64,000 nt of DNA, from positions 102,001 through 166,000 of the forward strand of contig CAMXCT020000368.1 in assembly GCA_947184155.2 (NCBI GenBank), in the 5' to 3' direction. The number at the start of each line of letters is the position of its first letter. Positions within the stretch are counted from its first letter, which is position 1. The stretch comes from Cladocopium goreaui (Eukaryota > Sar > Dinophyceae > Suessiales > Symbiodiniaceae). The notes beneath the pieces were generated by a model. The model was not told where the DNA came from, ran no database searches, and saw nothing but the letters and a program-made list of their open reading frames with translations. The position numbers and the translations under genes are program-made. This document shows, in pieces, positions 11,191 through 47,506 of this stretch.

Positions 11191-11829
11191 ATGCAGAGAA
11201 CCTCTTTTGCGTACGACCAACAAAAACCTGTGTTGTGGGAGCAGGACCAAAGCGACGACGAAGATCTTGAATCACCGGAGCCTACAAACCAATACCCTCT
11301 GGTAATCAAACATGGCAATTGAACATCTTGAAATCCCCTAACTAAATGCCAAAAATCAGTGGGAAAATCAATGATTTGCCCAGTAAAACCTGCAATTAGT
11401 GCGGGGATTTTCTTGCAAGCCACGTTTTCACCGGAGAGTTGGCTTTCAAAGGCCTGGAGACCGTGCATGAATCAACCCTCCCAAAGTCAATGGATGTGAT
11501 ATTCACTGGACATAGATCTACCATAATCAATGTGTCACTTACCCTCTGGTAATTCAACAAAGCTATTGAAGATGACAATAGAAATAGTTGATTTACATTG
11601 TTTACATATAGAAAATAGTGATTTTCCACAGCCGCTGTTAGTTTACCATAGGCCAAAACAAACCATTCAAGAACTTTTGGGTCATCACTCCTCCACTGCG
11701 ACCTATAGGTCATCTGCTTGGTGGGCACCTACATTCTCAGCATTCCCGCGGGTGTTCTCGGTGCAGCCTTTCACGCCGCTTGTTCGAAGCACCAATCTGG
11801 ATACCCTCCCGTGCGAAATGGACCTTTGA
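11191..11829 (+). CDS. Three-exon gene model, 145-residue protein of unknown function, introns made by family A elements
   Basis: Exon 1, 11191-11301: ATG start (in-frame TGA just upstream), 37 codons, acidic middle (EQDQSDDEDLESPEP), ending ...NQYPL at CTCTG|GTAATC. Exon 2, 11400-11548: acceptor GCAATTAG|TGC, reading CGDFLASHVFTGELAFKG...DVIFTGHRSTIINVSL, ending CTCTG|GTAATTC. Exon 3, 11652-11829: acceptor TTACCATAG|G, reading PKQTIQELLGHHSSTATY...TLPCEMDL and TGA. Phases match at both joins (0/0 and 2/2). Intron 2 (103 bp) is a family A element end to end; intron 1 (98 bp) begins with a family A TIR and has a decayed right end. Another forward frame is also open through exon 3. No known domain is recognised. 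Confidence 0.6.
11294..11406. mobile_element. Family A element, decayed right end, acting as intron 1
   Basis: TACCCTCTG|GTAATCAAACATGGC at the left; the right end AATTAG|TGCGGGG is a diverged form of AATTACCAGAGGG. Confidence 0.55.
11542..11653. mobile_element. Family A element acting as intron 2
   Basis: TACCCTCTG|GTAATTCAAC...GATTTTCCACAGCCGCTG...GTTTACCATAG|GCC. The splice sites fall at the same places in the TIRs as in the copies at 19352, 37455 and 47384. Confidence 0.75.
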
Positions 11830-12342
11830 ATAGGAAAATCCATAACTCACGTATGACCAACTGAGGTCCGTAAGAGAAGTGGTGTGGCCTTATTTCAGCT
11901 ATCGTTCAGGTTAGTTAACTTCATAATTCAGCGATAATTCCATCCAACGGCCATTAAAATCTTCCACTAAAGTCCCGCTAAATGCCAGTAAATGCCATCT
12001 AACTCTTGTAATTCAGCCAGATAAGCCAGATGGCCAGATATGTGGAATTATCTTGTGATATGGGCAGAAAAAGTTTCCAAAAAATCCGCCACTTACCACT
12101 CACCAGTTTTCTCGAATACCAGAGCCCATCCAAGTAAGTCATTCAGCCATAATTCAGCCAGATACATGGAATTATCTGGTGATATGAATGATTTAATCAT
12201 CTTTTTTGTTCCGCCAGTTACCGGAAATCAGGTGTGCAAAAACAAGCATTATTTACTCCTGATTTTTGTGTTTACGCCACTAATCATCTAACATCAACTA
12301 ATCCCATTGAAGTAGGGAAGTAGGTCATTCTTGGCATCTCAG
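11830..12342. other. Non-coding; local duplication of a GGAATTATCTTGTGATATG segment
   Basis: AATTCAGCCAGATA...TGGAATTATCTGGTGATATG occurs at 12012-12062 and again at 12151-12187, separated by a short unrelated segment. No gene is seen. Confidence 0.4.
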
Positions 12343-12497
12343 GAACATGTGACCAAGAATCACAACGCGAGTTCCACTGCCTGGGAGCGAGTACAGGTGA
12401 ACTCGCCGCCGGAAACCGTGCGATCTCAGAGTTCACGAAGAGTTGTCCCCCCAAAAAAATCTATGAAACCATAGAACAAAATGGTAGAAAATGGTGA
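12343..12497 (+). CDS. Candidate terminal exon, unknown protein
   Basis: Acceptor GGCATCTCAG|GA followed by 50 codons (TCDQESQREFHCLGASTG...NRAISEFTKSCPPKKIY...) to TGA at 12495. Strong GNN codon bias and an isolated GC rise. A possible early donor ACAG|GTGAAC at 12396 would shorten it. No domain recognised. Confidence 0.45.
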
Positions 12498-13252
12498 TTT
12501 CATAAGATTTCATGGGATAAACCAACAAATTGGTACACAACATGCTATAAAATTGTGATTTAACCCAACAAAACAATGGGATTGTTCATTGATTTCATGA
12601 CTTCATGGGTTTGTTTAAGCATTCTGCTACTTGGGGCTGCAGGACTGAGGTTTCTTTCACGGGTATAACCATGGTTGACCAAGCCCATATGTTGGGATAT
12701 AGTAAAAATATAATATACACTAATATTAATATATTCCTATATATGCCACTATGGTATGTTAATGCACTTAATATGAGATACTTCTATTCCATATGTGTTG
12801 GATATGATTATTTGCATTCCAATGTTGTGGTCATAATTCATTTTCCAATCCCATTAGTTTGCGATTCCTAGGTTTCAGGGTGTACTGATGCGACCGGTCG
12901 TTCATCCTCGTTTTGGGATGCTGGAACTGATGGTTTCTGGTAAGTCATCCCAGAAATGACGATTTCATTATGGGATGACTGTGAACATGTCAAAATTGTA
13001 ATGACTCAGAAGCCACAAGCTGTGACACATTTTCACCCCAGTTCATGTTCACAAGATTCTGAAAAATGTGATTTCATTGTTGGGGACTTGTGAACATGGA
13101 CACTCAACATTAAGTTAACAATGCACACACAGAGATTTCACCCATGAGCACTCAAATTACACGTTCATTGTAAGAATGAGGATTGTAATATATTACAAGC
13201 TACATGTTAAAGTCACATGGACACTCAACCTTGCAGCAATTGAAAACGTTTG
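12498..13252. other. No supported gene
   Basis: AT-rich DNA. Repeated words GTGATTTCATTGTTGGGGAC and CACAAGCTGTGACACATTTTC suggest old repeats. No convincing frame. Confidence 0.4.
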
Positions 13253-13374
13253 CCCTCTGGTAGTTTAACAGTTTGCTATAGAAAAAATTGGAAAAATGCC
13301 CATTTATAGATCATTTACCTATTAAACGGATTTAAAATTACGATTTTATATAGCTATGTCAAATTACCAGATGG
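13253..13374. mobile_element. Family A element
   Basis: CCCTCTGGTAGTTTAACAG...TAGCTATGTCAAATTACCAGATGG-TA. The right TIR has ATGG instead of AGGG. Directly followed by an open exon-like frame. Confidence 0.8.
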
Positions 13375-13561
13375 TAATTATATCACCTTTTGGCCATATA
13401 TTGGGGGTTTTGTTCATGTTGACCATGTTGACTGGATTGATGCTTCGACGTTCCTGGCAGACATCTCATCCAGCAAATGTGGAAAGCCACACCTTTCGAG
13501 AACAAGTGGGGCGAAAACAACACATCTCATCTTGTTCTTCTCAAATAATACTGGCAACTGA
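13371..13561 (+). CDS. Candidate exon directly downstream of a family A element
   Basis: From the ACCAG| at the end of the element the frame AT GGT AAT TAT ATC ... is open for 63 codons (NYITFWPYIGGFVHVDHV...DASTFLADISSSKCG...) to TGA 13559-13561. A GC donor (AATACTG|GCAACTG) just before the stop may instead join it to the next island. Function unknown. Confidence 0.45.
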
Positions 13562-13675
13562 GACTAGTTACCAGTTGCTATCCTTTTCACACTCATTTTT
13601 GCATGTGAAGGCCATGAACGCGCTTTGGAAAATCCTATGATTTTGGGAAGAAAAACCGTCTTCGCCCTTCCGCAG

Positions 13676-13831
13676 ACCCGACCAACATTGGTTCCCTGGG
13701 GCTGCAGAGGCAGCTGAAGCAGTGCGACGACCTTCGCTGTTTTTCTCCTCGGTGCTGATTGTGTTGGTGGTCCGGAAAACCCAGAGCCGGAGAAGCCGTT
13801 TAAAACGCAACGGTTGAGAAGTGGCCATTTA
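13676..13831 (+). CDS. GC-rich exon island with two overlapping open frames
   Basis: After the acceptor CTTCCGCAG|A one frame reads PDQHWFPGAAEAAEAVRRP then a hydrophobic LFFSSVLIVLVV and a basic tail, ending TGA 13815. A second frame (FAVFLLGADCVGGPENPEP...) is open from about 13720 to the CTCTG|GTAATTT donor of the next family A element and has the stronger GNN bias in its second half. Either could be real. The minus-strand 101-codon frame is an antisense shadow. Confidence 0.4.
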
Positions 13832-13935
13832 CCCTCTGGTAATTTAACATAACTATGGAAAATCACCATGTTTAATGGGAAAATCCACTATTTCTATGGC
13901 CATTTTCAATAGCTATGTGTTAAATTACCAGAGGG
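13832..13935. mobile_element. Family A element
   Basis: TA-CCCTCTGGTAATTTAACATAAC...GTTAAATTACCAGAGGG-TA, 104 bp. Confidence 0.85.
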
Positions 13936-14176
13936 TAAGTGGGATTCAGAGTTTCATAGAGTTTCAATTCCAGTTTGAATGCTGTAACTATAGTTATATC
14001 GGTCATATCCCAGTTATAGGTTTACACATCCATTTTCTATACTACTACGAGTATATATAATTATATCACCCTGAATCAACCCAACAGTTAAGCATGTATA
14101 AATCCATATAAATCCCATTAAACCCCATTAAATCTCATTTTGATTCGCGACATCACCACTTTTCCCATGGGTTTCG

Positions 14177-14574
14177 TTGAATCGTTCGGAGAACGAGGTG
14201 CTGTCCACCGCAAACTTCATCCTGCTCACGGCGGTCTACCAGATGCCGGTCTATGCCGGTGATACGCGAGGTGCGGGCGCGGCGCGGGGCACGAAGAGGA
14301 ACCTCCGGTGTCATGGGAAATCCGTAGCACAGCCATGGACTGGTTGGTGCTTTGGAATTTTATTTTTCCATTCAGTTGGGAATGTCATCATCCCAACTGA
14401 CGAACTCATATTTTTCAGAGGTGTTGAAACCACCAACCAGTGGAGCTTTTAATAAGAGAATCGAACGAATTTTTGGGATTTTTCCAGCTAACCATCTCTG
14501 ATTACCCAGTTACAACCAGAGAGTATAAGTGGTTAATAACCATTATACAAGGCAGATGTATGTATAGGATATAA
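14177..14574 (+). CDS. Candidate two-exon segment spliced through a family B element
   Basis: Exon 1 (frame open from about 14167; SENEVLSTANFILLTAV...MPVYAGDTRGAG..., GC-rich, GNN-biased, with a hydrophobic stretch) ends at 14342 inside the B left TIR: ACTG|GTTGG. Exon 2 begins at 14441 after CCAACCAG| and reads VELLIRESNEFLGFFQLTI...YPVTTREYKWL to TAA 14572. Removing 14343-14440 (98 bp, GT-AG) keeps the frame (phase 1). Without splicing the first frame stops soon after 14450. Function unknown; the hydrophobic part could be a membrane segment. The upstream acceptor is unclear. Confidence 0.5.
14340..14440. mobile_element. Family B element with TGGA target duplication, acting as an intron
   Basis: TGGA-CTGGTTGGTGCTTTGGAA...TTTTTCAGAGGTGTTGAAAC...CACCAACCAG-TGGA. 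The TGGA repeats are at 14336-14339 and 14441-14444. Confidence 0.85.
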
Positions 14575-14815
14575 TGGATATACATACCCCAGTTGTGTGT
14601 GGGTTAATTGTGGGTTATAACCACTTGTGGGATTTATCCCCGAGTAGGGAAAAGCAGGGAAGGAAATCAATGGTGGCAAGAAACATGGTATAAACATGTA
14701 TAAACATATTATGTTCAGTGAATATTTGGTGATTATTGGTGAATACTGGTAAATATTGGGATACCAAACTTGGCAAATATGCTAACTGGTTGGTGAATAG
14801 TTGGTCAAACTGCAT

Positions 14816-14998
14816 ATCTCCCAAACTTGTTCCGACCCTGAGAAGTACATGTGGTGATTTCGTAGAGAAACCATTTCCGCTTTGGGTTTTGGTACGGAAT
14901 ATCCAACGATACCTTCATTTGTTTCAGGCGGGGTCTGGTTTCACCTACACAGTTGTTTCATGCCAAACCTGCTGGTTTAGTTCACTTAGACAGTAGGT
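14816..14998 (+). CDS. Weak exon candidate
   Basis: The frame SPKLVPTLRSTCGDFVEKP...WVL reaches TTTTG|GTACGG. ATTTGTTTCAG|GCGGGG 48 bp on would continue AGSGFTYTVVSCQTCWF in the same frame. The small intron and low codon bias keep this uncertain. Confidence 0.25.
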
Positions 14999-15324
14999 TC
15001 TATGCCCCCCAATTTTGTCAGTTGACCAAGCCTATCTACCCCGTTTGAGGATTTCAAAAGAATGCGGTATCTACCTAAATCATTGTTCTCCCCAATGAAC
15101 ATAACAACTCTTGGATAATTTTGCGGGAGTTGATTTTAAGGAACTCACCAATGCACTTTATTCTCAAACCCTTTATATTTTTGTAGTCTATTTAAATTGG
15201 ACTGACCACCCCATAATTCACCTTTAACTTGTTTTTTGAGCCAATAGACATTAATAAAAACGTTGCTAAATCCTTGTGATCTCTATATTTTTTAATGGTA
15301 ATTTGCTGTAAAACCATAACCACG

Positions 15325-15437
15325 TTTGAGCCGTACTGCGTGGTGTCAGGCTTTTCGTATCCGAAGAATTCCTGGCAACGTTCCTTGAAGCTCGGTCCAT
15401 GGGACATAGCATGGGTCGGGACAGGCATTCACAGGTG
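15325..15437. CDS. Exon-like island, strand uncertain
   Basis: GC-rich segment open on both strands. Plus reads CVVSGFSYPKNSWQRSLK...WVGTGIH to CACAG|GTGGGT. Minus reads HAMSHGPSFKERCQEFFG...KPDTTQYGSN to AAC|GTGGTT. Both have donor-like ends. No product recognised. Confidence 0.3.
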
Positions 15438-15455
15438 GGTAGCTGATAGTTGCAT

Positions 15456-15566
15456 GGAGGTTTCCTCAATGGGGGTACCCGGGGTACCCCAAAACCATAG
15501 GTTTCAACACTTAAATAGTCTAATGACTTGAATGATTTGGGGGTACCCCCAATTTTAGGAAACCCC
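15456..15566. mobile_element. Family G element
   Basis: GGAGGTTTCCTCAATGGGGG...TACCC is the inverse of GGGTACCCCCAATTTTAGG...AAACCCC. An inner inverted core ACCCCAAAACCAT is shared, in the other orientation, with the copy at 17697. Confidence 0.75.
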
Positions 15567-15639
15567 AAATGAGTTTGTTTACCGAATTATTGGTTTATCA
15601 TTATATGTAGTCTAACTATCAGTTACTGGGTATAGTACC

Positions 15640-15845
15640 CAAATGATGGTTTAAACCAACAAATACCCTCTGGTAAACAGCCACATAGCTATGGAAAATC
15701 ACATTTTTTTCATGGGTAAATCCACTATTTCGACTGGGCCATGTTCAATAGCTATGTTAGTTCACCAGAGGGTACTACCTATATATTAGTGGTGATGACT
15801 GGGGGATGGTTGGATGGTTTATGGTTGTTTTATCCACATTAATAT
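15640..15845. repeat. Segment homologous to 19305-19533 (family A element plus flanking coding-like sequence)
   Basis: Contains a family A element (15666-15772) flanked on the left by GTTTAAACCAACAAATACC and on the right by CTATATATTAGTGGTGATG...GGATGGTTGGATGG..., both matching the 19.3-kb locus. In the left flank the frame that is open at 19.3 kb carries a TAA here, so this is the decayed copy. Confidence 0.75.
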
Positions 15846-15874
15846 CATAGGAATATATACAGATACATATATTT

Positions 15875-15912
15875 AGCTATAAATAGCTATGCAAACGTTT
15901 ATCAGAGGGTAA
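15875..15912. mobile_element. Family A right-end remnant
   Basis: TAAATAGCTATGCAAACG...TTTATCAGAGGGTA. Confidence 0.5.
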
Positions 15913-16073
15913 TGGTAAACCAGGTACCTTTAATTTTGATGATAAACATCATGATTTACCTCGGCAAACACCCATGTTGGGGACGGGTCAACACCCATGT
16001 TGTACCAGATTTGAGGGGAAATCATCTTGGAGATATAATTGTGATGCAATCAGGGAGTATATGTATAATTATG

Positions 16074-16170
16074 TACATTATATATATATATATATGTGTA
16101 TATATATATATATTTATATATATATATAGTATGATTTTACTCACATGACATGTTATATATATATATATGT
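16074..16170. repeat. (TA)n-rich microsatellite
   Basis: Alternating TATATA/TGTATA blocks interrupted by GTATGATTTTACTCACATG. Confidence 0.9.
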
Positions 16171-16310
16171 ATATCTCCAAACGTATGGTATGTGGGTTGG
16201 TGTGAGAATGGTGGATTCAATCAAACATATTGCTAACTTTTTATGTGCAAAAATGATGTTAAAGCATTAGATTTGGGGGTACCATATTTTTAGACAACAT
16301 GATATTTTTC

Positions 16311-16404
16311 AATGGATTGGTTTAAGGGAAAATTTACAGGAAAGCCCCATATCTAATGGGAAAATCTATGGTTTCCTGTAGATTTTCCCTTAAACCAATC
16401 CGTT
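16311..16404. mobile_element. Short inverted-repeat element, family R
   Basis: CAATGGATTGGTTTAAGGG...AAAATTTACAGGAAA pairs with TTTCCTGTAGATTTTCCC...TTAAACCAATCCGTTG: about 34-bp arms around a 26-bp loop. A single complete copy in the window. Confidence 0.7.
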
Positions 16405-16660
16405 GAATTTTGGATCTCATTGGACAGCCAGCAAAATGATTTCACCGGTTCAAAATGTATCACAGTCATGTCTGTGTTGTGTGTTTTTGCTTGGTTGGTT
16501 TCACCCAAAGAATGTGGCGATATGTGGCGCATGGAACTACAAAATGTGGAACCAACGCGAAGCTGAAAGCTGGGATTGTTCCACAAAAATACATGAGTTT
16601 TGGTGCAAACAACGAATGGCCTGCCTGTTTTTTCAAGCCTTGCTCTTGATCGTGTCGTGA
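16403..16660 (+). CDS. Candidate terminal exon, frame uncertain
   Basis: Two plus frames are open across 16505-16655. One reads NVAICGAWNYKMWNQREAE...ALLLIVS and TGA 16658; the other reads WRYVAHGTTKCGTNAKLK...FFKPCS and TGA 16647. GNN bias is equal in the two. The segment is flanked by family R (left) and a family A fragment (right). No family recognised. Confidence 0.35.
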   Translation: MNFGSHWTASKMISPVQNVSQSCLCCVFLLGWFHPKNVAICGAWNYKMWNQREAESWDCSTKIHEFWCKQRMACLFFQALLLIVS

Positions 16661-16805
16661 CCCCAAGAATCTCTCCACACGAAAAGTGACATCCCGATAC
16701 ATCCCGATGCCTTCAGGGTTCAGGGCATTTTCTTTGAATCATTGCTTAGGCTGCCTAGGTTTGCAGATTACCAATTGCATTTGTGGGGTAGGAATTTGTT
16801 CGGTA

Positions 16806-16875
16806 CCCTCCAGTAAACGTTTACATAGCTATGGAAAATCACCCTACATTTATCGATCATTTTTCCATTGAAACG
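16806..16875. mobile_element. Family A element, left half
   Basis: GTACCCTCCAGTAAACGTTT...ACATAGCTATGGAAAATCACC, then diverges. Confidence 0.6.
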
Positions 16876-16958
16876 TCCATAGGGGATTTCCCAGCTAGAC
16901 ACATTTGATTGTCGAAGGGTACCCTACATCACTTCATAGGCCAACAAGAATTGTGACC

Positions 16959-17159
16959 AAGGATAGCGCCCTGTCGATATGTCGACACCTTGCTGGCATT
17001 GCCCTTCTGTTACATGTGGGCATCGAAGTTGCTCCGTTTGGCGATCCTTGGCCGGTTTTTCCTTGGGGTGTTATTGTGGATCTAAGGTCCAGTTGCATGC
17101 CTTTACAGAGAAGATTAAAACCATATACAAAATCCTATTGTCTTGAGCTAACAGAATGA
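16959..17159 (+). CDS. Candidate exon, unknown protein
   Basis: The frame KDSALSICRHLAGIALLL...GIEVAPFGDPWPVFPWG...VIVDLRSSCMPLQ has strong GNN bias to about 17108, then continues weakly to TGA 17157. A small second island at 17160-17253 (RFSELRPGVALQEGNYSR...) may be the next exon. Hydrophobic N-terminal half. No domain recognised. Confidence 0.4.
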   Translation, partial: KDSALSICRHLAGIALLLHVGIEVAPFGDPWPVFPWGVIVDLRSSCMPLQRRLKPYTKSYCLELTE

Positions 17160-17351
17160 GAGATTTTCTGAGCTCAGACCCGGAGTTGCACTTCAGGAAG
17201 GCAACTATTCGCGGGGTACAGGGATGTGCCAGTTCAAGGCTGGTTAGCCAACCCTGATGCTTGTAACAGGATTTATAGTCATTGCTAGTCATATCATGTC
17301 ATATCTATAGTTAATTGTGATCGGGATTATCAACCACTTTGCTTACATCCA

Positions 17352-17782: not shown

Positions 17783-17790
17783 GATCGCCC

Positions 17791-17990: not shown

Positions 17991-18017
17991 GTTTTCAATG
18001 ATCTTTGAATTTCAACT

Positions 18018-19216: not shown

Positions 19217-19425
19217 CCGTTGCGGTCTCGCTGAAATTTCCTTGGGATCCCAAGGGATGGATGATCCATCAAAGTCAGGATCCAGCGATAGCGAAAAAGG
19301 GGTAGCCCCCATGACTATGGGTGGAAACCAACAAAAAATATACCCGGCCTGGTAATGACTAACAGTTTGCTATTGAAGCCATGGCCCATAGAAATAGTGG
19401 ATTTACCAATTGAAAATGGTGATTT

Positions 19426-19457
<32 letters not shown>

Positions 19458-19869
19458 CAATACTACTTGTACCTATATATTAATGGTGATGACTGGGGGA
19501 TGGTTGGATGGTTTATGGTTGTTTTACCGACATCATTATTAGAACAAGCAAGTTCCATCGCTTACCCATCTCGCTGTGACCGAAGAAAAATTATACCGTT
19601 CAGTGAGTATCACATGAATAGACGAGTAAAATTGCTTGGACACATATTAAGAAGCAACGGCAACGACCCTATGAGGCAAATTTCCTTTCTACCTGATTCT
19701 GCGCACAGAGCTGAATACGGAACCAAGCGAGTTGGAAAGCCTCGTCAAAATTGGCTGCATCATACCAAAAAGTATGTTTATGAAAACATATTAGGGCATT
19801 ATGATTATGGTGAGACTCACATGAACGATCAAAGGGTGTATGAAGCAGCCGTAAGCAGACAGTTTTAGC
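19217..19869 (+). CDS. Chimeric coding segment: host exon, family A intron, exon, then LINE C-terminal tail in frame
   Basis: Exon 1 (19217-19351; acceptor CCAACCTTAG|C) reads CGLAEISLGSQGMDDPSK...SSDSEKGVAPMTMGGNQ...YPA with very strong GNN bias and ends CCGGCCTG|GTAATG in the left TIR of a family A element. The right TIR gives CCAGAG|GG at 19453. The joined frame (phase 2) reads WVQYYLYLYINGDDWGMVG...WFMVVLP and then runs without a stop into a LINE tail (SRCDRRKIIPFSEYHMNRR...VKLLGHILRSNGNDPMRQ) to TAG 19866-19868. The first part is of unknown function. The fusion may be an insertion into the gene's exon or 3' end. Confidence 0.5.
19343..19455. mobile_element. Family A element acting as an intron
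   Basis: TACCCGGCCTG|GTAATGACTAAC...GCAAACTGTTAGTTTACCAGAG|GGTA. The left TIR is the CCCGGCCTGG subtype, also found at 28272 and 48181. Intron 19352-19453 is 102 bp. Confidence 0.8.
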
Positions 19870-26414: not shown

Positions 26415-26743
26415 GTCAGATGTTGGGATGTTTGGGATGTTGTTTGAGTAGAATCCCATTTCCACATGCAAAAAATGCATGCGATATGTTCCTACATGTG
26501 TTTTTCCTATAGGGAAAACTATTGGTAAATATTCCAGCGCAAAACATGCGGGTTTGATTAGCCAGAACCACCAACGAGATGGATGCGTCACTTAAAGTAC
26601 ATGTATATGCGAATATCGTGTAGAAACCGAAGATTGGGAAGAGAAGAAACTAAGACTTGGATGGCATCAACCGCAGAAATGGGGGCTTACAGTACCATTT
26701 GGCTAGTACAGTATCTGCCAGTTGAGATGAGCTGCCATAGCTA

Positions 26744-26847
26744 CCCTCTGGTAAACTAACATAGCCATGGAACATCACCATGCTATTAATGGGTGAATCA
26801 ACTATTTCTATGGCCATTTTCAATAGCTACGTTTGTTTACCAGAGGG
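26744..26847. mobile_element. Family A element
   Basis: TA-CCCTCTGGTAAACTAACATAGCC...GCTACGTTTGTTTACCAGAGGG-TA. Confidence 0.85.
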
Positions 26848-26868
26848 TATGTTTTGTTTACCAGAGGC

Positions 26869-26960
26869 ATTTGGATTATGGTTCCATTCAGTTGGGGATT
26901 TCATCATCCCAACTGACGAAGTCCATCATTTTTCAGAGGGGTAGGTATACCACCAAGCAG
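26869..26960. mobile_element. Family B element, 5'-truncated
   Basis: GCATTTGGATTATGGTTCC...GGGGATTTCATCATCCC...GGGGTAGGTATACCACCAAGCAG. The left TIR is missing next to the family A copy. Confidence 0.65.
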
Positions 26961-28119: not shown

Positions 28120-28280
28120 TCATTTGAGTTTCCATGTTCCATTTGGAGGATGTCGATGATTTTCGCCACAACTTTGTGGCTCCTGGGCTCGATCCTCATG
28201 TACTATGCGGAGAGAGATAATCCCGCCGAAGGCAGGGTGGCTGGCTGCAGTAAAGAGAAAGTCACTGGTTACCCGGCCTG
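28120..28280 (+). CDS. K+-channel-like S5/turret exon
   Basis: Acceptor TTTTATTCTAG|TCA, frame SFEFPCSIWRMSMIFATT...LWLLGSILMYYAERDNPAEG...KEKVTGYPA, ending CCGGCCTG|GTAAACG in a family A left TIR (phase 2). The hydrophobic stretch followed by M.Y.AE.DNP is what the S5 helix and outer turret of voltage-gated K+ channels look like (compare the S5-turret junction YFAE in Kv channels). This is family inference; the selectivity filter is not in this exon. Either part of the same gene as the S6 exon at 36985 or of a related copy. Terminal exons of other candidates lie between. Confidence 0.45.
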
Positions 28281-28480
28281 GTAAACGTTTACGTTTAACT
28301 GACTGGAAAATATCACCATGCGATTTTCATGGGTAAATCAACTATTTAATGGGGAATAAACCATGATATAAGATCATACTGTTTGGCGGTTTGGAACATG
28401 GCTTTTATTTTTCCCAATAATTGGGATGATGATCCAATCTGACTTTAATATTTTTCAGGCGGGTTGAAACCACCAATTAG
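28250..28480. mobile_element. Composite of a family A left part and a family B element, duplicated at 48163-48378
   Basis: GAGAAAGTCACTGGTTACCC...GGCCTGGTAAACG...AACTATTTAATGGGGAATAA...AGATCATACTG, then a B element (CTGTTTGGCGGTTTGGAAC...ACCACCAATTAG). The same order and sequence occur at 48163-48378. Confidence 0.75.
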
Positions 28481-28883: not shown

Positions 28884-29120
28884 ATGGAGGTTTCCTAAGT
28901 CATGGGAGTACCCCTACAAGGTGGTGCCCCCGTTCGATAGCGTTCAGTTGGTGAACATAACTCCAATTTCACTATGGTTTATAGGTGATATATCTATAGT
29001 TGCCCCCAAGATAGCTAAGTTGGTTTATAACTCCAATAACTATGGTTTTTGTTGGTGATATATCGAACTAGTTAATGGGCTTATAACCAATTTAGAACTA
29101 GGGGGGGCACCACCTTGTAG
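28884..29120. mobile_element. Family G fragment followed by a family C element (double-core)
   Basis: GGAGGTTTCCTAAGTCATGGG...AGTACCCC (28886-28913) abuts a C element 28914-29120: CTACAAGGTGGTGCCCCC...GGGGGGGCACCACCTTGTAG. This C copy is 207 bp and contains a second internal TTGCCCCCAAGATAGC...AAGTTGGTTTATAAC block, as if two C copies merged. Confidence 0.75.
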
Positions 29121-29167
29121 TTCTCATCCATTTATAGATGGTACACTGACATGTGATTTTTTACCAG

Positions 29168-29541
29168 TACAACATGGGGATTCAGCTGTGAGGGAGAACA
29201 TAGCACCATGCCGTCCAGTGCTTGGGAGAAGCTGTACAAGAGCTTCGCCAAAGAGACGAAGGCGGCCGGAGACTTCCGCACCATGCCGTACACTGCTTGG
29301 GAGAAGCTGTACAAGAGCTTCGTTCGCCAAAGAGACGAAGGCCAATGAGATATCGCAACATGATCTGAAAACCATTGAAGAGAAAGCTGAGGTGGGCGAT
29401 TTTCCGGAGGTGCTCTCCGACCAAGTGGATGTTTCAATCAATCGCCCGGAAGGCCTGATCCTGAACCAAGACATTTTCCGCACTTTTATTGACAAGGACA
29501 TGTCGCGGAAGGAGAAGGAAATTTGGGCGGCTTGTCTATAA
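29168..29541 (+). pseudogene. Coding segment with an in-frame 75-bp duplication and a 4-bp frameshift
   Basis: Acceptor TTTTTTACCAG|T; frame TTWGFSCEGEHSTMPSSAW...EKLYKSFAKETKAAGDFR, then a second copy TMPYTAWEKLYKSF. The units start at 29205 and 29280 (75 bp, 25 codons). In the second unit TTCG is duplicated (GCTTCGTTCGCCAAAG) and shifts the frame; ignoring it, the frame continues AKETKANEISQHDLKTIEE...PEVLSDQVDVSINRPEGL...RTFIDKDMSRKEKEIWAAC and TAA 29539-29541. Acidic, helical, no recognised family. Either a recent pseudogene or a sequence error in an otherwise intact terminal exon. Confidence 0.5.
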
Positions 29542-31476: not shown

Positions 31477-32425
31477 AGCATGACGCTGGGCGCTGCGGCT
31501 TTTGGCGTGGCAGGTGTGGCACTTGGCGACATCTATCTTCACTTTGCGTGGGAGGCATGGAGTTGGCGATATCTATCTTCACTTTGCGTGGCAGGCGTGG
31601 CACTTATGGCACTGGGCTGGCTTTGGTGGCGCGCTTGGTTCTCAGGTGTGACGCTGGGCGCCGCGGCTCTTTTGGCGTGGCAGGCATGGCACTTGGCGAT
31701 ATCTATTTTCACTTTGCGTGGCAGGCGTGGCACTTATGGCACTGGGCTGGCTTTGGTGGCGCGCTTGGTTCTCAGGTGTGACGCCCTGCGCCGCGGCTCT
31801 TTTGGCGTGGCAGGCGTGGCACTTGGCGATATCTATCTTCACTTTGCGTGGCAGGTGTGGCACTTATGGCACTGGGCTGGCTTTGGTGGCGCGCTTGGTT
31901 CTCAGGTGTGACGCTGGGCGCCGCGGCTCTTTTGGCGTGGCAGGCGTGGCACTTGGCGATATCTATTTTCACTTTGCGTGGCAGGCGTGGCACTTATGGC
32001 ACTGGGCTGGCTTTGGTGGCGCGCTTGGTTCTCAGATGATGTGGGCGCTGCGGCTCTTTTGGCGTGGCAGGCGTGGCACTTGGCGATATCTATCTTCACT
32101 TTGCGTGGCAGGCGTGGCACTTATGGCACTGGGCTGGCTTTGGTGGCGCGTTTGGTTCTCAGATGATGCAGCTTTTGGCGTGGCAGGCGTGGCACTTGGC
32201 GATATCTATTTTCACTTTGCGTGGCAGGCGTGGCACGTATGGCACTGGGCTGGCTCCGGTGGGGCGCTTGGGGCGGAGTGGCCGCGGTGGCCGCTGCGGC
32301 TGTTGGCGTGGCAGGCGTGGCACTTGGAGACATCCACCTTCGTTTCACGTGGCAGGCGTGCTACTTGGTGACAACGACTTCCACTTCGTGTGGCAGGAGT
32401 GGTACTTGCTGACATCGCACCAAAT
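31477..32425. repeat. 130-bp GC-rich tandem array with GCGTGGCAGGCGTGGCAC
   Basis: The unit CTTTTGGCGTGGCAGGCG...TTGGCGATATCTATCTTC...CACTTTGCGTGGCAGGCG...GGGCTGGCTTTGGTGGCG... repeats at a spacing of 128-130 bp, about 6.5 copies, the last ones shortened. Frames up to 334 codons across it and the next array are repeat artefacts. The core word is the reverse complement of that at 22.8-23.7 kb. Confidence 0.95.
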
Positions 32426-36130: not shown

Positions 36131-36454
36131 ATGGATGGTTGCGAAATCCTGCACCACCAAAAGGATTGTTGAACCCCTATCTGGTTGGTGGTTTGGAAGA
36201 TTTGGATGATTTTTCCATTCAGTTGGGAATGTCATGTTCCCAACTGACGAACCCCATCATTTTTCAGAGGGGTAGGGCTCAACCACCAACCAGTTATATA
36301 GTTATTAACCATCATTAACCATATAATAACCATTAATATTAACCATTAACAGTATATTAGCCATCATTAATATTAACCATATAATAACCAACCAGCTATA
36401 AATGCTGGGAGAAACCACCGTTTTCAACTCGTGCAGGATTTCGCAACCATCCAT
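36131..36454. mobile_element. Family F element with a nested family B element
   Basis: Ends ATGGATGGTTGCGAAATCC...TGCACCA and inverse TGCAGGATTTCGCAACC...ATCCAT enclose 324 bp, including a complete B element (36181-36293: CTGGTTGGTGGTTTGG...AACCACCAACCAG) and AT-rich CATTAACCATATAATAACC repeats. Confidence 0.75.
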
Positions 36455-36486: not shown

Positions 36487-36783
36487 CTAGGATTTCATCC
36501 AGCCACTATATATCTATGGAGGTTTCCTGAAATGGGGGTACCCCCAGTCATCATCCAGCTATTAGATTGGGATTTTCCATGAAATACACCAACCAGCTAT
36601 TGGGGAACCCCTATGGATTGGAAATCCCCATATATCAATGGGAGATCTTCAGAATCCTAAAATTGACGTACGTTAGTACCACATTTTTGCGCATATGTTC
36701 ATATATGTTCTAGGGATATCACCTTACATAGGCCTAAAAAATAGGCCTTATATATGGTAGGTACCTCCAATTTAGGTTCTTGA
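36487..36783. mobile_element. Family E copy carrying a nested family G element
   Basis: AGGATTTCATCCAGCCACTATATAT, then a G element (36514-36631: GGAGGTTTCCTGAAATGGGG...AACCCCTATGGATTGG), then TATCAATGGGAGATCTTCAG and an E element (36649-36783) ending GGTACCTCCAATTTAGG. The copy at 46613-46781 has the same order without the G insertion. Confidence 0.8.
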
Positions 36784-36789
36784 AATGAC

Positions 36790-36960
36790 CATTTATATAT
36801 CCATCCAAATAACTATGATGGATATAGTTAATTTATGGATATAATTTATAGTTATATACAACTGAATATATATCACTATGGATATACCTAGTTATGATTT
36901 ATCCATATAACCATCCCCTATAGTATATATAGTTGGCCTAGAGAAATACGCATCGTAATT
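36790..36960. other. AT-rich repeats ATAGTTATATCCATAT
   Basis: Diverged ATGGATATAGTTAATTTATGG-type words, no gene. Confidence 0.4.
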
Positions 36961-36984: not shown

Positions 36985-37757
36985 AATTTGTTTTTGCCTG
37001 AGGGCAAAGCGATCCACACGATCATCATGCTCCTGGGTGTGGGTCTTTTCACCGTGCCCATGGGACTTTTTGCTTCGGCCTTCCGAGAACGTCTCTCGGA
37101 TCCCGGAGTTTTTTCGCAGGGTGGCCTGGGATGGCCTGGGATTTAAATGGGCCTCTTAAGTGGGATGAAAGAAACTCCTATAAATTATGAATAGTTGATG
37201 ATATATGATGACATAAGTTATTTATAATTTATTTATAATCATAGTATTTAGTGATGTCCCATGACTTTCCCATCATGTTCCCATTCGTTCAGGGCTATAA
37301 CTGTACCAACGGGACATGTGTTAGAGTTTTTGTTGGGCTACAACTGTGGGTGTTGGACCTGACGACCTGACTTCTTGGAAATAAAGTGGATCCAAGTGGG
37401 AACACCTTTTTGAGATCTAACTGGGAATCAAAATGACTGGGAACTTACCCTCCGGTAAACGTTTACATAACTATGGAAAATCACCATGCTATTAATGGGT
37501 AAATTAAATATGTCTATGGCCATTTTCAATAGCTATGGAAACGTTTACCAGAGGGTAAGAATCAAACATGATCCACTGGTTGGCTGATTGGTGGTTTGGA
37601 ACATGGGTTTTGTTTCCATGTATTGTGAATAATCATCTCAACTGACTAATATTTCTTCAGAAGAATTGAAACCACCAACCAGTTAAGAATCAAACATGAT
37701 CCATTGTTGGAAACGATCTACGTTCTTCTTTGGGAATCCAGTAATGTCAAGTTGTGA
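36985..37757 (+). CDS. 3' part of a voltage-gated K+-channel-like gene (S6 helix and C-terminus), four exons
   Basis: Exon 1, 36985-37120: acceptor CAACCACAG|AAT; NLFLPEGKAIHTIIMLLG...VGLFTVPMGLFASAFRER...LSDP, ending G|GTGGCC (phase 1). The GVGLFTVPMGLFASAF stretch is a typical pore-lining S6 of Kv channels. Exon 2, 37415-37454: TTTTTGAG|AT...; DLTGNQNDWELTL, ending CTCCG|GTAAAC. Exon 3, 37554-37578: CCAGAG|G...; VRIKHDPL, ending CTG|GTTGG. Exon 4, 37683-37757: CCAACCAG|; LRIKHDPLLETIYVLLWE...NVKL and TGA. All three joins are in phase. Intron 2 is a family A element (99 bp) and intron 3 a family B element (104 bp). Pore helix, filter and voltage sensor are not seen next to it. The sequence supports a K+ channel by the S6 motif only. 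Confidence 0.6.
37448..37555. mobile_element. Family A element acting as an intron
   Basis: TACCCTCCG|GTAAACGTTTAC...AGCTATGGAAACGTTTACCAGAG|GGTA. TIRs extend about 18 bp. Confidence 0.85.
37576..37682. mobile_element. Family B element acting as an intron, with 19-bp flanking direct repeats
   Basis: CTGGTTGGCTGATTGGTGG...GAATTGAAACCACCAACCAG. AAGAATCAAACATGATCCA lies immediately left (37557-37575) and again right (37685-37703). Confidence 0.8.
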
Positions 37758-40486: not shown

Positions 40487-40540
40487 GTTCTTTATACATA
40501 TTAAGTGTGAGATTTGGGCGGCCACAACAGTCCTTTCTGT

Positions 40541-43100
40541 ATTATTAACCATCATTAACCACCATTAACCATCATTAACCATCATTAACCATCATTAACC
40601 ATCATTAACCATCATTAACCATTAATAATAACCATTAATAATAACCATTATTAACCATTATTAACCATTAATAACCATTAATAACCATTAATAACAATTA
40701 ATAACCATTAATAACCATTAATAATAACCATTATTAATAACCATTATTAATAACCATTATTAATAACCATTATTAATAACCATTATTAATCACCATTATT
40801 AATAACCATTATTAATAGCCATTATTAATAACCATTAATAATAACCATTATTAATAACCATTAATAATAACCATTAATATTTTAACCATTAATAATAACC
40901 ATTAATGATAACCATTATTAATAACCATTGATATTATAACCATTACTAATAACCATTAATAATAACCATTACTAATAACCATTATTAATAACCATCAATA
41001 ATAACCATTAATAATAACCATTAATAACCATTAATAATAACCATTAATAACCATTAATAATAACCATTAATAACCATTAATAACCATTAATAACCATTAA
41101 TAACCATTAATAATAACCATTCATAATTACCATTATTAATCATTGTTAATAACCATTATTAATCATTAATAATAACCATTATTAATAACCATTATTAATA
41201 ACCATTATTAATAACCATTATTAATAACCATTATTAATAGCCATTATTAATAACCATTAATAATAACAATTAATAATAACCATTAATAATAACCATAAAT
41301 AATAAACCATTAATAATAACCATTACTAACCATTATTAATAACCATTAGTAATAACCATTAATAATAACCATTCATAATAACCATTAATAATAACCATAA
41401 ATAATAACCATCAATAATAACCATTTTTCTCATTAATAATAACCATTAGAAATAACCATTTATAATAACCATTAATAATAACAATTAATAATAACCATTA
41501 ATAATAACCATAAATAATAAACCATTAATAATAACCATTAATAATAACCATTAATAATAACCATTAATAATAACCATTAGTAACCATTAATAACCATTAA
41601 TAACCATTAATAATCACCATTAATAATCACCATTAATAATAACCATTATTAAGCATTAATAATAACCATTATTCATCATTAATAATAACCATTAATAATA
41701 ACCATTAATAATAACCATTAATAATAACCATTACTAATAACAATTAATAATAACCATTATTAATAACCATTATTAATAACCATTATTAATAACCATTATT
41801 AATAACCATTATTAATAGCCATTATTAATAACCATTAATAATAACAATTAATAATAACCATTAATAATAACCATAAATAATAAACCATTAATAATAACCA
41901 TTACTAACCATTATTAATAACCATTATTAATAACCATTATTAATCACCATTATTAATAACCATTATTAATAGCCATTATTAATAACCATTATTAATAGCC
42001 ATTATTAATAACCATTAATAATAACCATTATTAATAACCATTAATAATAACCATTATTAATAACCATTAATAATAACCATTGATATTATAACCATTACTA
42101 ATAACCATTAATAATAACCATTACTAATAACCATTATTAATAACCATCAATAATAACCATTAATAATAACCATTAATAACCATTAATAATAACCATTATT
42201 AACCATTAATAATAACCATCAATAATAACCATTAATAATAACCATTACTAACCATTAATAATAACCATCAATAATAACCCTTAATAATAACCATTAATGA
42301 TAACCATTTATAATAACCATTATTAATAACCATTATTAATAGCCATTATTAATAACCATTAATAATAACCATTATTAATAACCATTAATAATAACCATTA
42401 ATATTTTAACCATTAATAATAACCATTAATGATAACCATTATTAATAACCATTGATATTATAACCATTACTAATGACCATTAATAATAACCATTACTAAT
42501 AACCATTATTAATAACCATCAATAATAACCATTAATAATAACCATTAATAACCATTAATAATAACCATCAATAATAACCATTAATAATAACCATCAATAA
42601 TAACCCTTAATAATAACCATTAATGATAACCATTTATAATAACCATTAATAATTTAACCATTGTTAATAACAATTTTTAATAGCCATTATTGACAACCAT
42701 TTTTAATAACCATTATTAATAACCATTATTAATAACCATTAATAATAACCATTATTAATAACCATTTTTAATAGCCATTAATAATAACCATTATTAATAA
42801 CCGTTATTAATAGCCATTATTAATAACCATTATTAATAACCATTATAAATAACCATTAATAATAACCATTAATAATAACCATCATTAACCACCATTATTA
42901 ATAACCATTAACAATAACCATTATTAATAACCATTAATAATAACCATTGATAACAACCATTAATAATAACCATCATTAACCACCATTATTAATAACCATT
43001 ATTAATAACCATTATTAACAACCAGTATTTATAACCATTATTAATAACCATTATTAATAGCCATTATTAATAACCATTATTAATAACCATTATTAACCAT
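40541..43100. repeat. AT-rich minisatellite, ATTAATAATAACC family
   Basis: About 2.5 kb of 10- to 13-bp units (CATTAATAATAAC, CATTATTAATAAC, CATTAACCAT) with local higher-order runs; several kilobase-scale segments (for example 40730-41010 and 41750-42150) look like duplications of each other. Confidence 0.98.
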
Positions 43101-43198
43101 GATGATGTCGTGAAGGTCTGTGATTCCCAGAAGATCATCGACGAATGCTGGCCATGACCATCGTTCCACATCCTTCGACACTGTGGGACGATGTGGAA
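43101..43198 (+). other. Unique island inside the minisatellite, copy 1
   Basis: GATGATGTCGTGAAGGTCTG...CATGACC...GTTCCACATCCTTCGACAC...GATGTGGAAC. The frame DDVVKVCDSQKIIDECWP is open to TGA. The end forms a hairpin (GTTCCACATC/GATGTGGAAC). Copy 2 is at 43635-43740. Confidence 0.7.
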
Positions 43199-43200
43199 CT

Positions 43201-43634
43201 CATCATTAACCATCATTAACCATCATTAACCAATAATAATAACATATAGTAACCATTAATAATATCCATTAATAATTTAACCATTAATAATAACCATTAA
43301 TAATTTAACCATTAATAATTTAACCATTAATAATAACCATTAATAATTTCACCATTAATAATTTAACCATTTATAATTTAACCATTAATAATAACCATTC
43401 ATAATTTAACCATTAATAATTTAACCATTAATAATTTAACCATCAATAATTTAACCATTAATAATTTAACCATTCATAATAACCATTAATAATTTCACCA
43501 TTAATAATTTAACCATTAATAATTTAACCATTAATAATAACCATTAATAATTTAACCATTAATGATTTTACCATTTATAATTTAACCATTAATAATTTAA
43601 CCATTAATAATAACCATTAATAATTTAACCATTG
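43201..43634. repeat. AT-rich minisatellite, ATTAATAATTTAACC variant
   Basis: Continuation with CATTAATAATTTAAC units, distinct from the TAATAACC units to the left. Confidence 0.97.
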
Positions 43635-43890
43635 ATGATGTCGTGAAGGTCTGTGATTCCCAGAGGATCATCCTGCGACGTGGCTGGCCATGACCAGAAC
43701 GTTCCACATCCTTCGACACTGTGGGACGATGTGGAACTTCTTGATGTGACACCTTGGGGCCTTGGGGTGGGCTGACCTAAGGATGACCCAGGATGGATGG
43801 CTGAAATCCCATTAAGGTCGACCTGCCGCAAGCCACTTCTCCACCCTGGACCAGTGGGACCGTCAACCCAGATGCAAGGATTCAGGCTAA
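43635..43890. other. Unique island, copy 2 with extra downstream DNA
   Basis: Same start and hairpin as copy 1, then 150 bp of GC-rich DNA (GGGTGGGCTGACCTAAGG...). A minus-strand frame (TSRSSTSSHSVEGCGTFW...) and a short plus frame are open. No function assigned. Confidence 0.5.
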
Positions 43891-43894
43891 AAGA

Positions 43895-45468
43895 AATCTG
43901 AAGGTTTGTCAATTGATATCAACCTACTTTCAATATCGTTCAATGATTTTTTCTTTTAATCCAAAGCCAAAAAGAAATCTGAAGGTGTGTCAATTGATAT
44001 CAACCTACTTTCAATATCGTTCAATGATTTTTTCTTTTAATCCAAAACCAAAAAGAAATCTGAAGGTTTGTCAATTGATATCAACCTACTTTCAATATCG
44101 TTCAATGATTTTTTTTTAAATCCAAAGCCAAAAAGAAATCTGAAGGTTTGTCAATTGATATCAACCTACTTTCAATATCGTTCAATGATTTTTTCTTTTA
44201 ATCCAAAACCAAAAAAAAATCTGAAGGTTTGTCAATTGATATCAACCTACTTTCAATATCGTTCAATGATTTTTTCTTTTAATCCAAAACCAAAAAGAAA
44301 TCTGAAGGTTAGTAAGGATGTCAATTGATATCAACCTACGTTCAATATCGTTCAATGAATTTTCCTTTTAATCCAAAACCAAAAGGAAATCTGAAGGCCT
44401 GTCAATTGATATCAACCTACTTTCAATATCGTTCAATGATTTTTTCTTTTAATCCAAAACCAAAAAGAAATCTGAAGGTTAGTAAGGATGTCAATTGATA
44501 TCAACCTACGTTCAATATTGTTCAATGAATTTTCCATTTAATCCAAAACCAAAAGGAAATCTGAAGGTTTGTCAATTGATATCAACCTACTTTCAATATC
44601 GTTCAATGAATTTTTTCTTTTAATCCAAAACCAAAAAGAAATCTGAAGGTTAGTAAGGATGTCAATTGATATCAACCTACGTTCAATATCGTTCAATGAA
44701 TTTTCCTTTTAATCCAAAACCAAAAGGAAATCTGAAGGTTTGTCAATTGATATCAACCTACTTTCAATATCGTTCAATGATTTTTTCTTTTAATCCAAAA
44801 CCAAAAAGAAATCTGAAGGTTAGTAAGGATGTCAATTGATATCAACCTACTTTCAATATCGTTCAATGATTTTTTCTTTTAATCCAAAACCAAAAAGAAA
44901 TCTGAAGGTTAGTAAGGATGTCAATTGATATCAACCTACGTTCAATATCGTTCAACGAATTTTCCTTTTAATCCAAAACCAAAAGGAAATCTGAAGGTTT
45001 GTCAATTGATATCAACCTACTTTCAATATCGTTCAATGATTTTTTCTTTTAATCCAAAACCAAAAAGAAATCTGAAGGTTAGTAAGGATGTCAATTGATA
45101 TCAACCTACGTTCAATATCGTTCAATGAATTTTCCTTTTAATCCAAAACCAAAAGGAAATCTGAAGGTTTGTCAATTGATATCAACCTACTTTCAATATC
45201 GTTCAATGATTTTTTCTTTTAATCCAAAACCAAAAAGAAATCTGAAGGTTAGTAAGGATGTCAATTGATATCAACCTACGTTCAATGTCGTTCAATGAAT
45301 TTTCCTTTTAATCCAAAACCAAAAGGAAATCTGAAGGTTTGTCAATTGATATCAACCTACTTTCAATATCTTTCAATGATTGTTTCATTAAATCCAAAGC
45401 CAAAAGGAAATCTGAAGGTTAGTAAGGATGTCAATTGATATCAACCTACGTTCAATAGTCAATAGATG
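43895..45468. repeat. 81-bp tandem array with a 170-bp higher-order repeat
   Basis: The monomer AAGGTTTGTCAATTGATATC...TCAATATCGTTCAATGATT...AATCCAAAACCAAAAAG is 81 bp in the first five copies. From about 44305, type 1 (AAGGTTAGTAAGGATGTC...CTACGTTCAAT...GAATTTTCC) alternates with type 2 (AAGGTTTGTC...CTACTTTCAAT...GATTTTTTC). The AAGGTTAGTAAGG marks lie about 170 bp apart (one gap of 89). Confidence 0.95.
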
Positions 45469-45479
45469 TTCTTTTTAAA

Positions 45480-45955
45480 CCTAGAAGAAAACCTCGAACA
45501 AAAAAAAAAGGTTGTTCTCTGTGGGGATTGATTATACAATCTGGTGATTACCCCCCGTTGATTAATCAAGGGGAACCAACCCATGTTAGTATTGCCCGAA
45601 CATGTTTCCTGTTGGGGGGTTGATTAATCCCTAGAAATTTTATATCATTTTATGATCACAACTATACATTATTCAAAATTAGCATGACTAGGAACATCTA
45701 GGAATCTAGGAACCAAAGATCTGTATCCCAGGTTTGGGCATGAACTATGAACATGGCAATCCCTGCGGTGCATCCTGGTTAACACATCGGTGTTGATCTC
45801 CCCAGTTGCTGGTTATCGTTACCCATTAACTGGTTCAATATGTGACCCGTAAATCCAATATGTGACCGAGTCACCGACCTATTGAAAAATGAACTTAGCT
45901 ATGAAACTGGCGACCCAGCTTGTAGATTCTTAGTTATTCGGGAAATTCCAAAGCT
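45480..45955. other. No supported gene
   Basis: GGGGATTGATTATAC...GTTGATTAATC words form a weak inverted repeat at 45515-45640. A short exon-like stretch (YSGNSKATL) may precede the next family A element. Confidence 0.35.
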
Positions 45956-45956
45956 A

Positions 45957-46059
45957 CCCTCTGGTAAACGTTTACATGGAAAATCGCCATGCTATTAATG
46001 GGACGACTCACTGTTTCGACTGGGCCATTTTCAATAGCTATTTTGACATAACTAGAGGG
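45957..46059. mobile_element. Family A element
   Basis: TA-CCCTCTGGTAAACGTTT...AGCTATTTTGACATAACTAGAGGG-TA. Confidence 0.8.
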
Positions 46060-46065
46060 TAAACC

Positions 46066-46180
46066 TCCATTTTCCTATGGTTTTCCTATGGTTTTCCTAT
46101 GGTTTTCCTATGGTTTTCCTATGGTTTTCCTATGGTTTTCCTATGGATCCCATGGTTTTGACATCACCAGAGGGTAACTT
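46066..46180. repeat. 11-bp tandem array inside a second A-like right end
   Basis: GGTTTTCCTAT x about 7 (46070-46148), then GGATCCCATGGTTTTGACATC...ACCAGAGGG-TA, suggesting an A element whose interior expanded. Confidence 0.8.
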
Positions 46181-46304
46181 GCGAAATGGCCACCGCCAGC
46201 TAGCCAGGCTTGGATGAGATGCACGCCAAGAAGTTGAGGTTCAATCTCATGGGGAACATGAAAAAAACAGCCGGTAGCCGGTAAGGCCATAAGGTTTTTG
46301 ATAT

Positions 46305-46408
46305 GGGTTTGTCTGAAAATAGGGTATATTCCCAATTATAGCCATTTAATATAGGGATAATGATCGTTAACCATTGGGTTTAGGGGTACACTATTTTCAG
46401 ACACACCC
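46305..46408. mobile_element. Family D element
   Basis: GGGTTTGTCTGAAAATAGGG...ATTGGGTTTAGGGGTACACTATTTTCAGACACACCC. Confidence 0.8.
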
Positions 46409-46545
46409 AAGGTTAATAACCATTAAAAACGGGGCTAGTCATCCAATGGTTCAGGATGGGATTTATAATAACCATTATTTTTGGATCCTTATTATGGATG
46501 GGATGACCATCAACCATATAGTGAGTATTGACCATGGCTCATATG
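46409..46545. mobile_element. Family P repeat
   Basis: GGTTAATAACCATTAAAAAC...GGGGCTAGTCATCCAATGG...ACCATATAGTGAGTATTGACC. Matches 60327-60475. Confidence 0.65.
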
Positions 46546-46612
46546 ATTTCATTGGATATTAATGGGATGTATATGATTCCATAACTAGGATTTCCACTTT
46601 GTTTTTGTTTCG

Positions 46613-46781
46613 CTAGGATTTCATCCATCCACTATATATTCAATGGGAGATCTTCAGGATCCAATTGATGGAGGTACGTTAGTACCATATGTTTGGCCAT
46701 ATTTTGTGGGGATATTCACTGAAACTAAGGCCTAAAAAATAGGCCTTATATATGGTAGGTACCTCCAATTTAGGTTCCTGA
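46613..46781. mobile_element. Family E element without nested insertion
   Basis: CTAGGATTTCATCCATCC...ACTATATATTCAATGGG...TCAGGATCCAATTGATGG...AGGTACCTCCAATTTAGG...TTCCTGA. This is the empty-site counterpart of 36487-36783. Confidence 0.8.
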
Positions 46782-46876
46782 GATGGCCAGTGATATGATT
46801 TCATGGGGTATTAATGGGATGTATATGATGTATAGATATCATCCCATTATATAGTATCATATGAATTTAAATTATT

Positions 46877-47001
46877 CTGATTGGTGGTGACTGGCACCAT
46901 GGCATTTTATGACTTTCCATTCAGTTGGGAATGGAATAATCATCCCAACTGACTTTCACTCCATGATTTTTCAGAGGGGTAGGCGAAAAACCACCAACCA
47001 G
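46877..47001. mobile_element. Family B element
   Basis: CTGATTGGTGGTGACTGGC...GGGGTAGGCGAAAAACCACC...AACCAG, 125 bp, the same subtype as 37903. Confidence 0.75.
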
Positions 47002-47236
47002 AAACATGATTTAATGGGATTTAATGGAGTTGAATAGTGAATATAGTGATATGATGTTATAATAGTGATATGGGTTTGAATATCTGATTGGGATATTAAT
47101 GGGATATATTAATGGGATGTATATGATGATGTCATCCCATTAGTATCATATGAATTTAAATGATATGATGTTATATAACCTCTGGTATCATCAAACATAG
47201 CAAGTGGAAATCCCTCATAATTGATGGTTCTCCCAG

Positions 47237-47506
47237 CCACAGAAGCCAGCGTTTTCTTCGAGGATTTTTCAGCCACGTTTTTGAGGATATCGGTTATGGG
47301 AATTTTGAACTATGGACTTTGGATCCTATTTTCAGAGAACATGTCTCAAGATGTCTCAAGATGCTGAAAAAACTTACCCTCTGGTAAACAAGCATAGCTA
47401 TTGAACATGGCCATTTATAGTGGATTTACCCATTAAAAATTGTGATTTTCCATAGTTATGTTATATAGTTTACCAGAGGGTACTTTTATTATGTATCAAC
47501 TTATAG
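47237..47506 (+). CDS. Two-exon 3' gene end spliced through a family A element
   Basis: Exon 1 (47237-47383; acceptor TTCTCCCAG|C) reads HRSQRFLRGFFSHVFEDIG...NFELWTLDPIFREHVSRC...KMLKKLTL with good codon bias, ending CCCTCTG|GTAAAC. Exon 2 (47479-47506; CCAGAG|GG) reads WVLLLCINL and TAG. The join is in phase 2. Intron 47384-47478 (95 bp) equals the family A element. Unknown function; helical and basic. Confidence 0.5.
47377..47480. mobile_element. Family A element acting as an intron
   Basis: TACCCTCTG|GTAAACAAGC...GATTTTCCATAGTTATG...TATAGTTTACCAGAG|GGTA. Confidence 0.85.

Follow-up and report, generated by a model that had tools for sequence, protein, structure and literature searches.

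Introners, transposon-like sequences that insert into coding exons and cause little harm because they are then spliced out as introns, have been described from many genomes. A total of 548 putative introner families are reported in 175 genomes, with messenger RNA length mostly unchanged by the insertion and one example of a 12-bp gain; terminal inverted repeats (TIRs) were noted in 72 of 177 families and target-site duplications (TSDs) in 49 of 130 (PMC9860276). The introns of Prorocentrum cordatum, moreover, are reported to be enriched in introner elements (PMC10666404). Here we analyze a stretch of 64,000 nt from the dinoflagellate Cladocopium goreaui (contig CAMXCT020000368.1, positions 102,001 to 166,000; hereafter “the window”) that harbors a dispersed family of short, TA-flanked, near-palindromic elements, which we refer to as family A. 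An earlier note on this DNA had described four of the copies as spliceosomal introns and the family as a currently or recently spreading introner. Our analysis instead makes it very probable that family A is a non-autonomous, TA-inserting miniature inverted-repeat transposable element (MITE) and that the four cited copies are not introns but elements inserted into repeat-rich non-coding DNA. It may represent a new MITE family.

Duplication of a TA target is a feature of the Tc1/mariner superfamily, and family A displays it at two empty sites. MITEs of this TA-duplicating kind are likewise short, non-coding (as family A is as far as seen), bounded by TIRs and dispersed; the difference is that family A came with neither a transposase nor an autonomous partner in the 55 of 64 kb that were scanned. 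With the introners of Symbiodinium microadriaticum, family A shares TIRs, TSDs, and a DNA-transposon anatomy (PMC9860276). Those introners, however, duplicate 4 bp and carry the 3′ splice site, their TSD supplying the 5′ splice site (PMC9860276), whereas family A duplicates TA, holds both candidate splice sites inside its TIR, and would add a net 11 or 13 nt. In Aureococcus sp., the introner itself carries both splice sites and leaves extra bases in the transcript, as the family A candidate would, but there the 12 added bases keep the reading frame (PMC9860276), whereas the gain with standard copies of family A would be 11 or 13. The introner elements of Amoebophrya resemble family A in their hairpin-capable inverted repeats and in the direct repeats at their borders, and differ in that they are introns backed by RNA sequencing, with direct repeats of 3 to 5 nt (PMC7789003). 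The internally symmetrical introns and stwintrons of Hypoxylaceae, at ~100 to 200 nt, are similar to their own reverse complements, as is family A, yet they sit seamlessly in genes with no flanking duplications, whereas family A duplicates TA and, where this could be tested, lies in repeats (PMC8469720). TIR and TSD, each present in some introner families only, are both present in family A. Neither IMG/VR nor GTDB contigs contained a match to the end-gap-end pattern of the family, one near-consensus copy found none in phage or plasmid records, and 21- to 22-base words of families A and B (the latter a second inverted-repeat family, see below) found none in IMG/VR; for such prokaryote and virus collections, absence says little.

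An iterated nucleotide profile search of the window, seeded with nine copies, returned 73 matches that we merged by eye into 38 places, of which 35 were matched on both strands and which together span 4,091 nt (overlaps counted twice). The end motif TTACCAGAGGGTA, allowing at most one mismatch, occurs 40 times in the window, whereas 100 dinucleotide shuffles contained it 0.05 times on average. The earlier description of a TA-flanked, DNA-transposon-like family of some 30 or more copies is borne out by these numbers and by the empty sites described below. The elements have the structure TA-CCCTCTGGTAAA…TTTACCAGAGGG-TA and are near-palindromic over their whole length of ~105 bp. We treated 25 copies as two-ended, and among these 50 ends, 42 agree with the inverted repeats CCCTCTGGTAAA/TTTACCAGAGGG in at least 9 of 15 positions. 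Most of these two-ended copies (22 of 25) measure 100 to 126 bp, the remaining three being 69, 143, and 147 bp long. Identity to their own reverse complement is 0.64 to 0.82 in 18 of the 25, while the other seven gave self-reverse-complement alignments of 0.01 to 0.33, for which free end gaps may partly account. Predicted RNA folding of the two-ended copies was stronger than that of 100 mononucleotide shuffles, with z scores from −1.3 to −14.6. Divergence from the consensus ranges from 5.8 to 43% (median 14.7%), and the closest pair in a filtered self-comparison of the window is 92.5% identical; a recent burst of family A is therefore not evident in the window, and the proposal of current or recent spreading finds no footing in these values.

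The mode of insertion could be read from relatives that lack the element. We queried 34 family A copies within the window as flank + TA + flank and obtained clean paralogous empty sites for two of them, at 50622 and 52343. The first of these, a short copy of 69 bp (50622 to 50690) within an element of a third inverted-repeat family, family C, has its empty relative at 48398 to 48508 on the minus strand, a family C element without the insertion (111 nt aligned at 92.8% identity); alignments of three more family C copies span the site. The second copy (52343 to 52446) lies within a family B element, and nine family B copies align across its insertion site, with empty copies at 7516, 2643, and 14338, among others. 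At both sites the TA junctions are exact or near-exact, which shows that family A inserted at a TA and duplicated it, and both sites lie inside other inverted-repeat elements. The copies at 6772, 10190, 26742, 27474, and 34008 gave incomplete or uninformative alignments, and the remaining queried copies had no empty site in the window. Family A thus combines terminal inverted repeats, a TA duplication, short length, and many copies with no transposase seen in the 55 kb scanned, i.e., the features by which MITEs are recognized. We infer that the elements would move by cut-and-paste, mobilized in trans by a Tc1/mariner-like transposase that targets TA and binds the terminal repeats.

The four sequences cited as introns exist at the coordinates and with the borders given for them: 11549 to 11651, 19352 to 19453, 37455 to 37553, and 47384 to 47478, with lengths of 103, 102, 99, and 95 nt. 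Their borders, however, are those of the transposable element. GGT is found near both ends, read inward, in 20 of the 25 two-ended copies, and the outer CCCTC, which would be exonic if the elements were introns, is conserved at 0.95 to 1.0, against 0.98 and 0.95 for GT (values from 42 of the 50 ends; exclusion of the eight poorly matching ends flatters both figures). The candidate GT…AG borders lie within the terminal repeat and look identical on both strands, and therefore provide no evidence of splicing. Counting the TA duplication, excision as CTG/GT…CAG/AG would leave 13 nt in a standard copy and excision as CTG/GT…AGAG/GG would leave 11 nt, so that the junctions proposed earlier would shift the frame by +11 (or +13) nt; the acceptor chosen at 19352 yields +13. 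Of 83 candidate site pairs, 19 yielded a net length divisible by 3, while 32 left a remainder of 1 and 32 a remainder of 2.

Removal of the four elements had also been said to join two open frames in register. We compared the longest open run across each junction with 5000 random excisions. On the plus strand, the run at 37455 was 24 codons (random share 0.95; shorter arm 0.72) and that at 47384 was 80 codons (0.28; shorter arm 0.22), i.e., both at the level of chance, while the 108 codons at 11549 (0.10; shorter arm 0.026) were borderline, and only 19352, treated below, stood out. Minus-strand runs at 11549, 19352, 37455, and 47384 measured 55, 55, 38, and 54 codons, with random shares of 0.57, 0.57, 0.80, and 0.59. 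The upstream arm at 11549 (149 nt, 11400 to 11548) overlaps another family A copy (11293 to 11439) by 40 nt, and the downstream arm at 19352 starts in repeat DNA that is common to 15741 to 15845 (81% over 118 columns), while the rest of that arm at most resembles a retrotransposon tail. Shifting the donor by −2, −1, +1, or +2 nt in the 25 two-ended copies gave mean shorter arms of 93.9, 96.6, 95.4, and 98.1 nt, against 96.8 nt for the actual sites. Since shifted sites open frames as well as the real ones, the small open-frame excess is untied to the reading frame, and stop-poor element ends may be its cause. When the flanks were joined over one TA, as before insertion, the mean shorter arm was 79.0 nt. 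With the outer acceptors, splicing of standard copies would not keep the reading frame (+11 or +13 nt), and shifted sites are equally good.

Neither did we find the copies in genes. Six-frame Pfam scans at E 0.1, with stops read as X, covered 2.0 to 39.0 and 46.0 to 64.0 kb (55 of 64 kb; 1 to 2.0 and 39.0 to 46.0 kb, mostly tandem repeats, lay outside the scan) and matched no family, although no positive control was run. No gene was thus recognized around any copy, and the phrase “introns in several genes” is not supported. By eye, the end of the open reading frame (ORF) at 19398 to 19868 resembles the tail of a reverse transcriptase of the type without long terminal repeats, but neither Pfam (E 1) nor PDB (E 10) returned a match, and we do not assign it. 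At 29059 to 29541, two ORFs of 160 and 166 amino acids (aa) overlap on opposite strands, with an internal repeat (29203 to 29263 versus 29278 to 29342, 91%); a PDB search at E 10 was empty. The window contained no Rfam match at gathering score, no transfer RNA in a search with bacterial settings, and no dinoflagellate spliced leader at up to three mismatches. Translations of family B and of 56981 to 57448 presumably resemble peptides from Symbiodiniaceae gene predictions.

Several observations weigh against reading family A as a plain MITE in non-coding DNA, and some of them also speak for an introner. At 19352 the plus-strand open run reaches 189 codons (random share 0.005; shorter arm 0.022). 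Across the 25 copies, the shorter arm averaged 96.8 nt for the actual GT/AG pairs versus 81.0 nt at random places with the same offsets (400 sets, P = 0.0175), with per-copy P values from 0.02 (16804) up to 0.985 (56571); a fixed-offset version gave P = 0.043 and 0.075, but the 298 nt at 11293, which was its maximum, came from TG instead of GT as donor. Among the 19 frame-neutral site pairs out of 83 are those of the variant-end copies 19341 and 56571 (+15, with a CAG acceptor) and those that use an inner TAG in nine rows (+21); they also include damaged-end copies, where the net sum is unreliable. No Pfam transposase was found in the 55 kb scanned (again with no positive control). Outside the long tandem arrays (49,310 nt), and compared with 60 simulations, ORFs of at least 80 aa numbered 103 versus 75 (standard deviation, SD, 8) and those of at least 160 aa 4 versus 1.1 (SD 1.1), both in excess, while counts at thresholds of 100, 120, and 140 aa were 34 versus 28 (SD 4), 10 versus 10.25, and 6 versus 3.8 (SD 2.2), and the longest ORF, 166 aa, compares with a mean simulated maximum of 176. 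The surplus at the 80- and 160-aa thresholds means that the window may hold a gene that lacks known domains. Donor- and acceptor-like ends in most copies, the existence of introners with TIRs and TSDs (PMC9860276), and the introner richness of dinoflagellates (PMC11453091) likewise speak for an introner. Against this stand the +11 or +13 nt left by outer acceptors in standard copies, the shifted sites that match real ones in opening frames, the lack of a recognized gene around the copies in the scanned 55 kb, and the location of both insertions with an empty site inside other repeats. Moreover, the supposed introner borders are the terminal repeat at both ends. We therefore regard it as improbable that family A is an introner family, and the label is unproven and unlikely for the copies in the window. 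Some family A copies, perhaps elsewhere, may still be spliced.

A milder version, in which ordinary MITEs that lie in transcribed non-coding DNA or untranslated regions sometimes serve, in either orientation and unadapted, as cryptic or alternative introns, would fit the donor- and acceptor-like ends that most copies show on both strands, as well as the predicted hairpin that brings the ends together (z −1.3 to −14.6). The conservation of the ends, however, reaches beyond the splice dinucleotides, and we consider this version unlikely, if a good deal less so than a true introner. More speculative still, and very doubtful in our judgment, is a scheme in which the terminal repeat would be dual-purpose, a transposase site that is also a splice pair in either orientation, and in which the variant with a longer left end (CCCGGCCTGGTAA or CCCAGCCTGGTAA; 19341, 28270, 48179, and 56571) would be a frame-neutral descendant (+15 nt, five codons, CAG acceptor) intermediate between MITE and introner. 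Were splicing of some copies real, a single terminal repeat would have a role in transposition as well as in splicing, in both orientations, and frame arithmetic would offer a simple test of a path from MITE to introner. As to chance similarity or a tandem or satellite repeat with no mobile family behind it, the window does hold many tandem arrays, but the copies are dispersed and bounded, with 40 end motifs against 0.05 expected, and the empty sites refute this reading, to which we assign next to no probability. For the MITE reading that we favor, the practical consequence is that terminal repeats starting with CTGGTAA and ending with TTACCAG mimic introns, which calls for caution with intron calls in repeat-rich genomes.

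Individual copies, given here without strand, illustrate the range of preservation. The copy with the first cited intron (11540 to 11653) has a degenerate right end and lacks the right TA; that with the second (19341 to 19457) carries the longer variant left end TACCCGGCCTGGTAA; and those with the third (37446 to 37557) and fourth (47375 to 47482) have TA at both sides. Near the consensus (5.8% off) are the copies at 13830 to 13937 and at 51212 to 51315, the latter self-complementary at 0.82, and the copy at 59361 to 59466 is 92.5% identical to 51211 to 51315 in reverse orientation. At 19341, 28270, 48179, and 56571, a left end two bases longer, CCCGGCCTGG or CCCAGCCTGG, replaces CCCTCTGG; the copy at 56571 to 56684 has the left end TACCCAGCCTGGTAA, and that at 48179 to 48276 has no recognizable right end and is joined to a family B copy. 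A truncated family A and a family B sequence form a fused unit at 28255 to 28476 and 48164 to 48374 (86.5% over 222 columns), which has been copied as one piece. Another copy, at 26742 to 26849, adjoins a damaged family B copy (26873 to 26960), and in the self-comparison the copies at 15664 and 19341 have a downstream repeat in common.

The window holds further repeats of related design. Family B is an inverted-repeat element of ~100 to 112 bp with ends CTGGTTGGTGGT…ACCACCAACCAG that resemble GT…AG, and with ends CTGGTTGGTGGTT…AACCACCAACCAG in the host element of copy 52343. It occurs at 7515 to 7625, 36181 to 36293, 48280 to 48378, 58507 to 58617, 10414 to 10525, and ~11 more places; 16 places were aligned, five of them with both ends intact, and possible direct repeats, not settled, are CATG (7515) and TCATA (48280). 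Family C, an inverted-repeat element with ends TACAAGGTGGTGCCCCC…GGGGGCACCACCTTGTA and host of the family A copy at 50622, lies at 4737 to 4866, 5837 to 5963, 28915 to 29121, 48396 to 48531, and 50546 to 50755. A dispersed repeat with ends like imperfect inverted repeats, family D, is found at 7052 to 7207, 36630 to 36798, 46640 to 46796, and 51438 to 51587, and further small dispersed families at 36516/48533/58774/62161, 46405/60336, and 5994/60987. Long tandem arrays occupy 1032 to 1784 (41-bp units), 31546 to 32360 (130 bp), 40616 to 43624 (13 bp), and 43889 to 45420 (81/170 bp).

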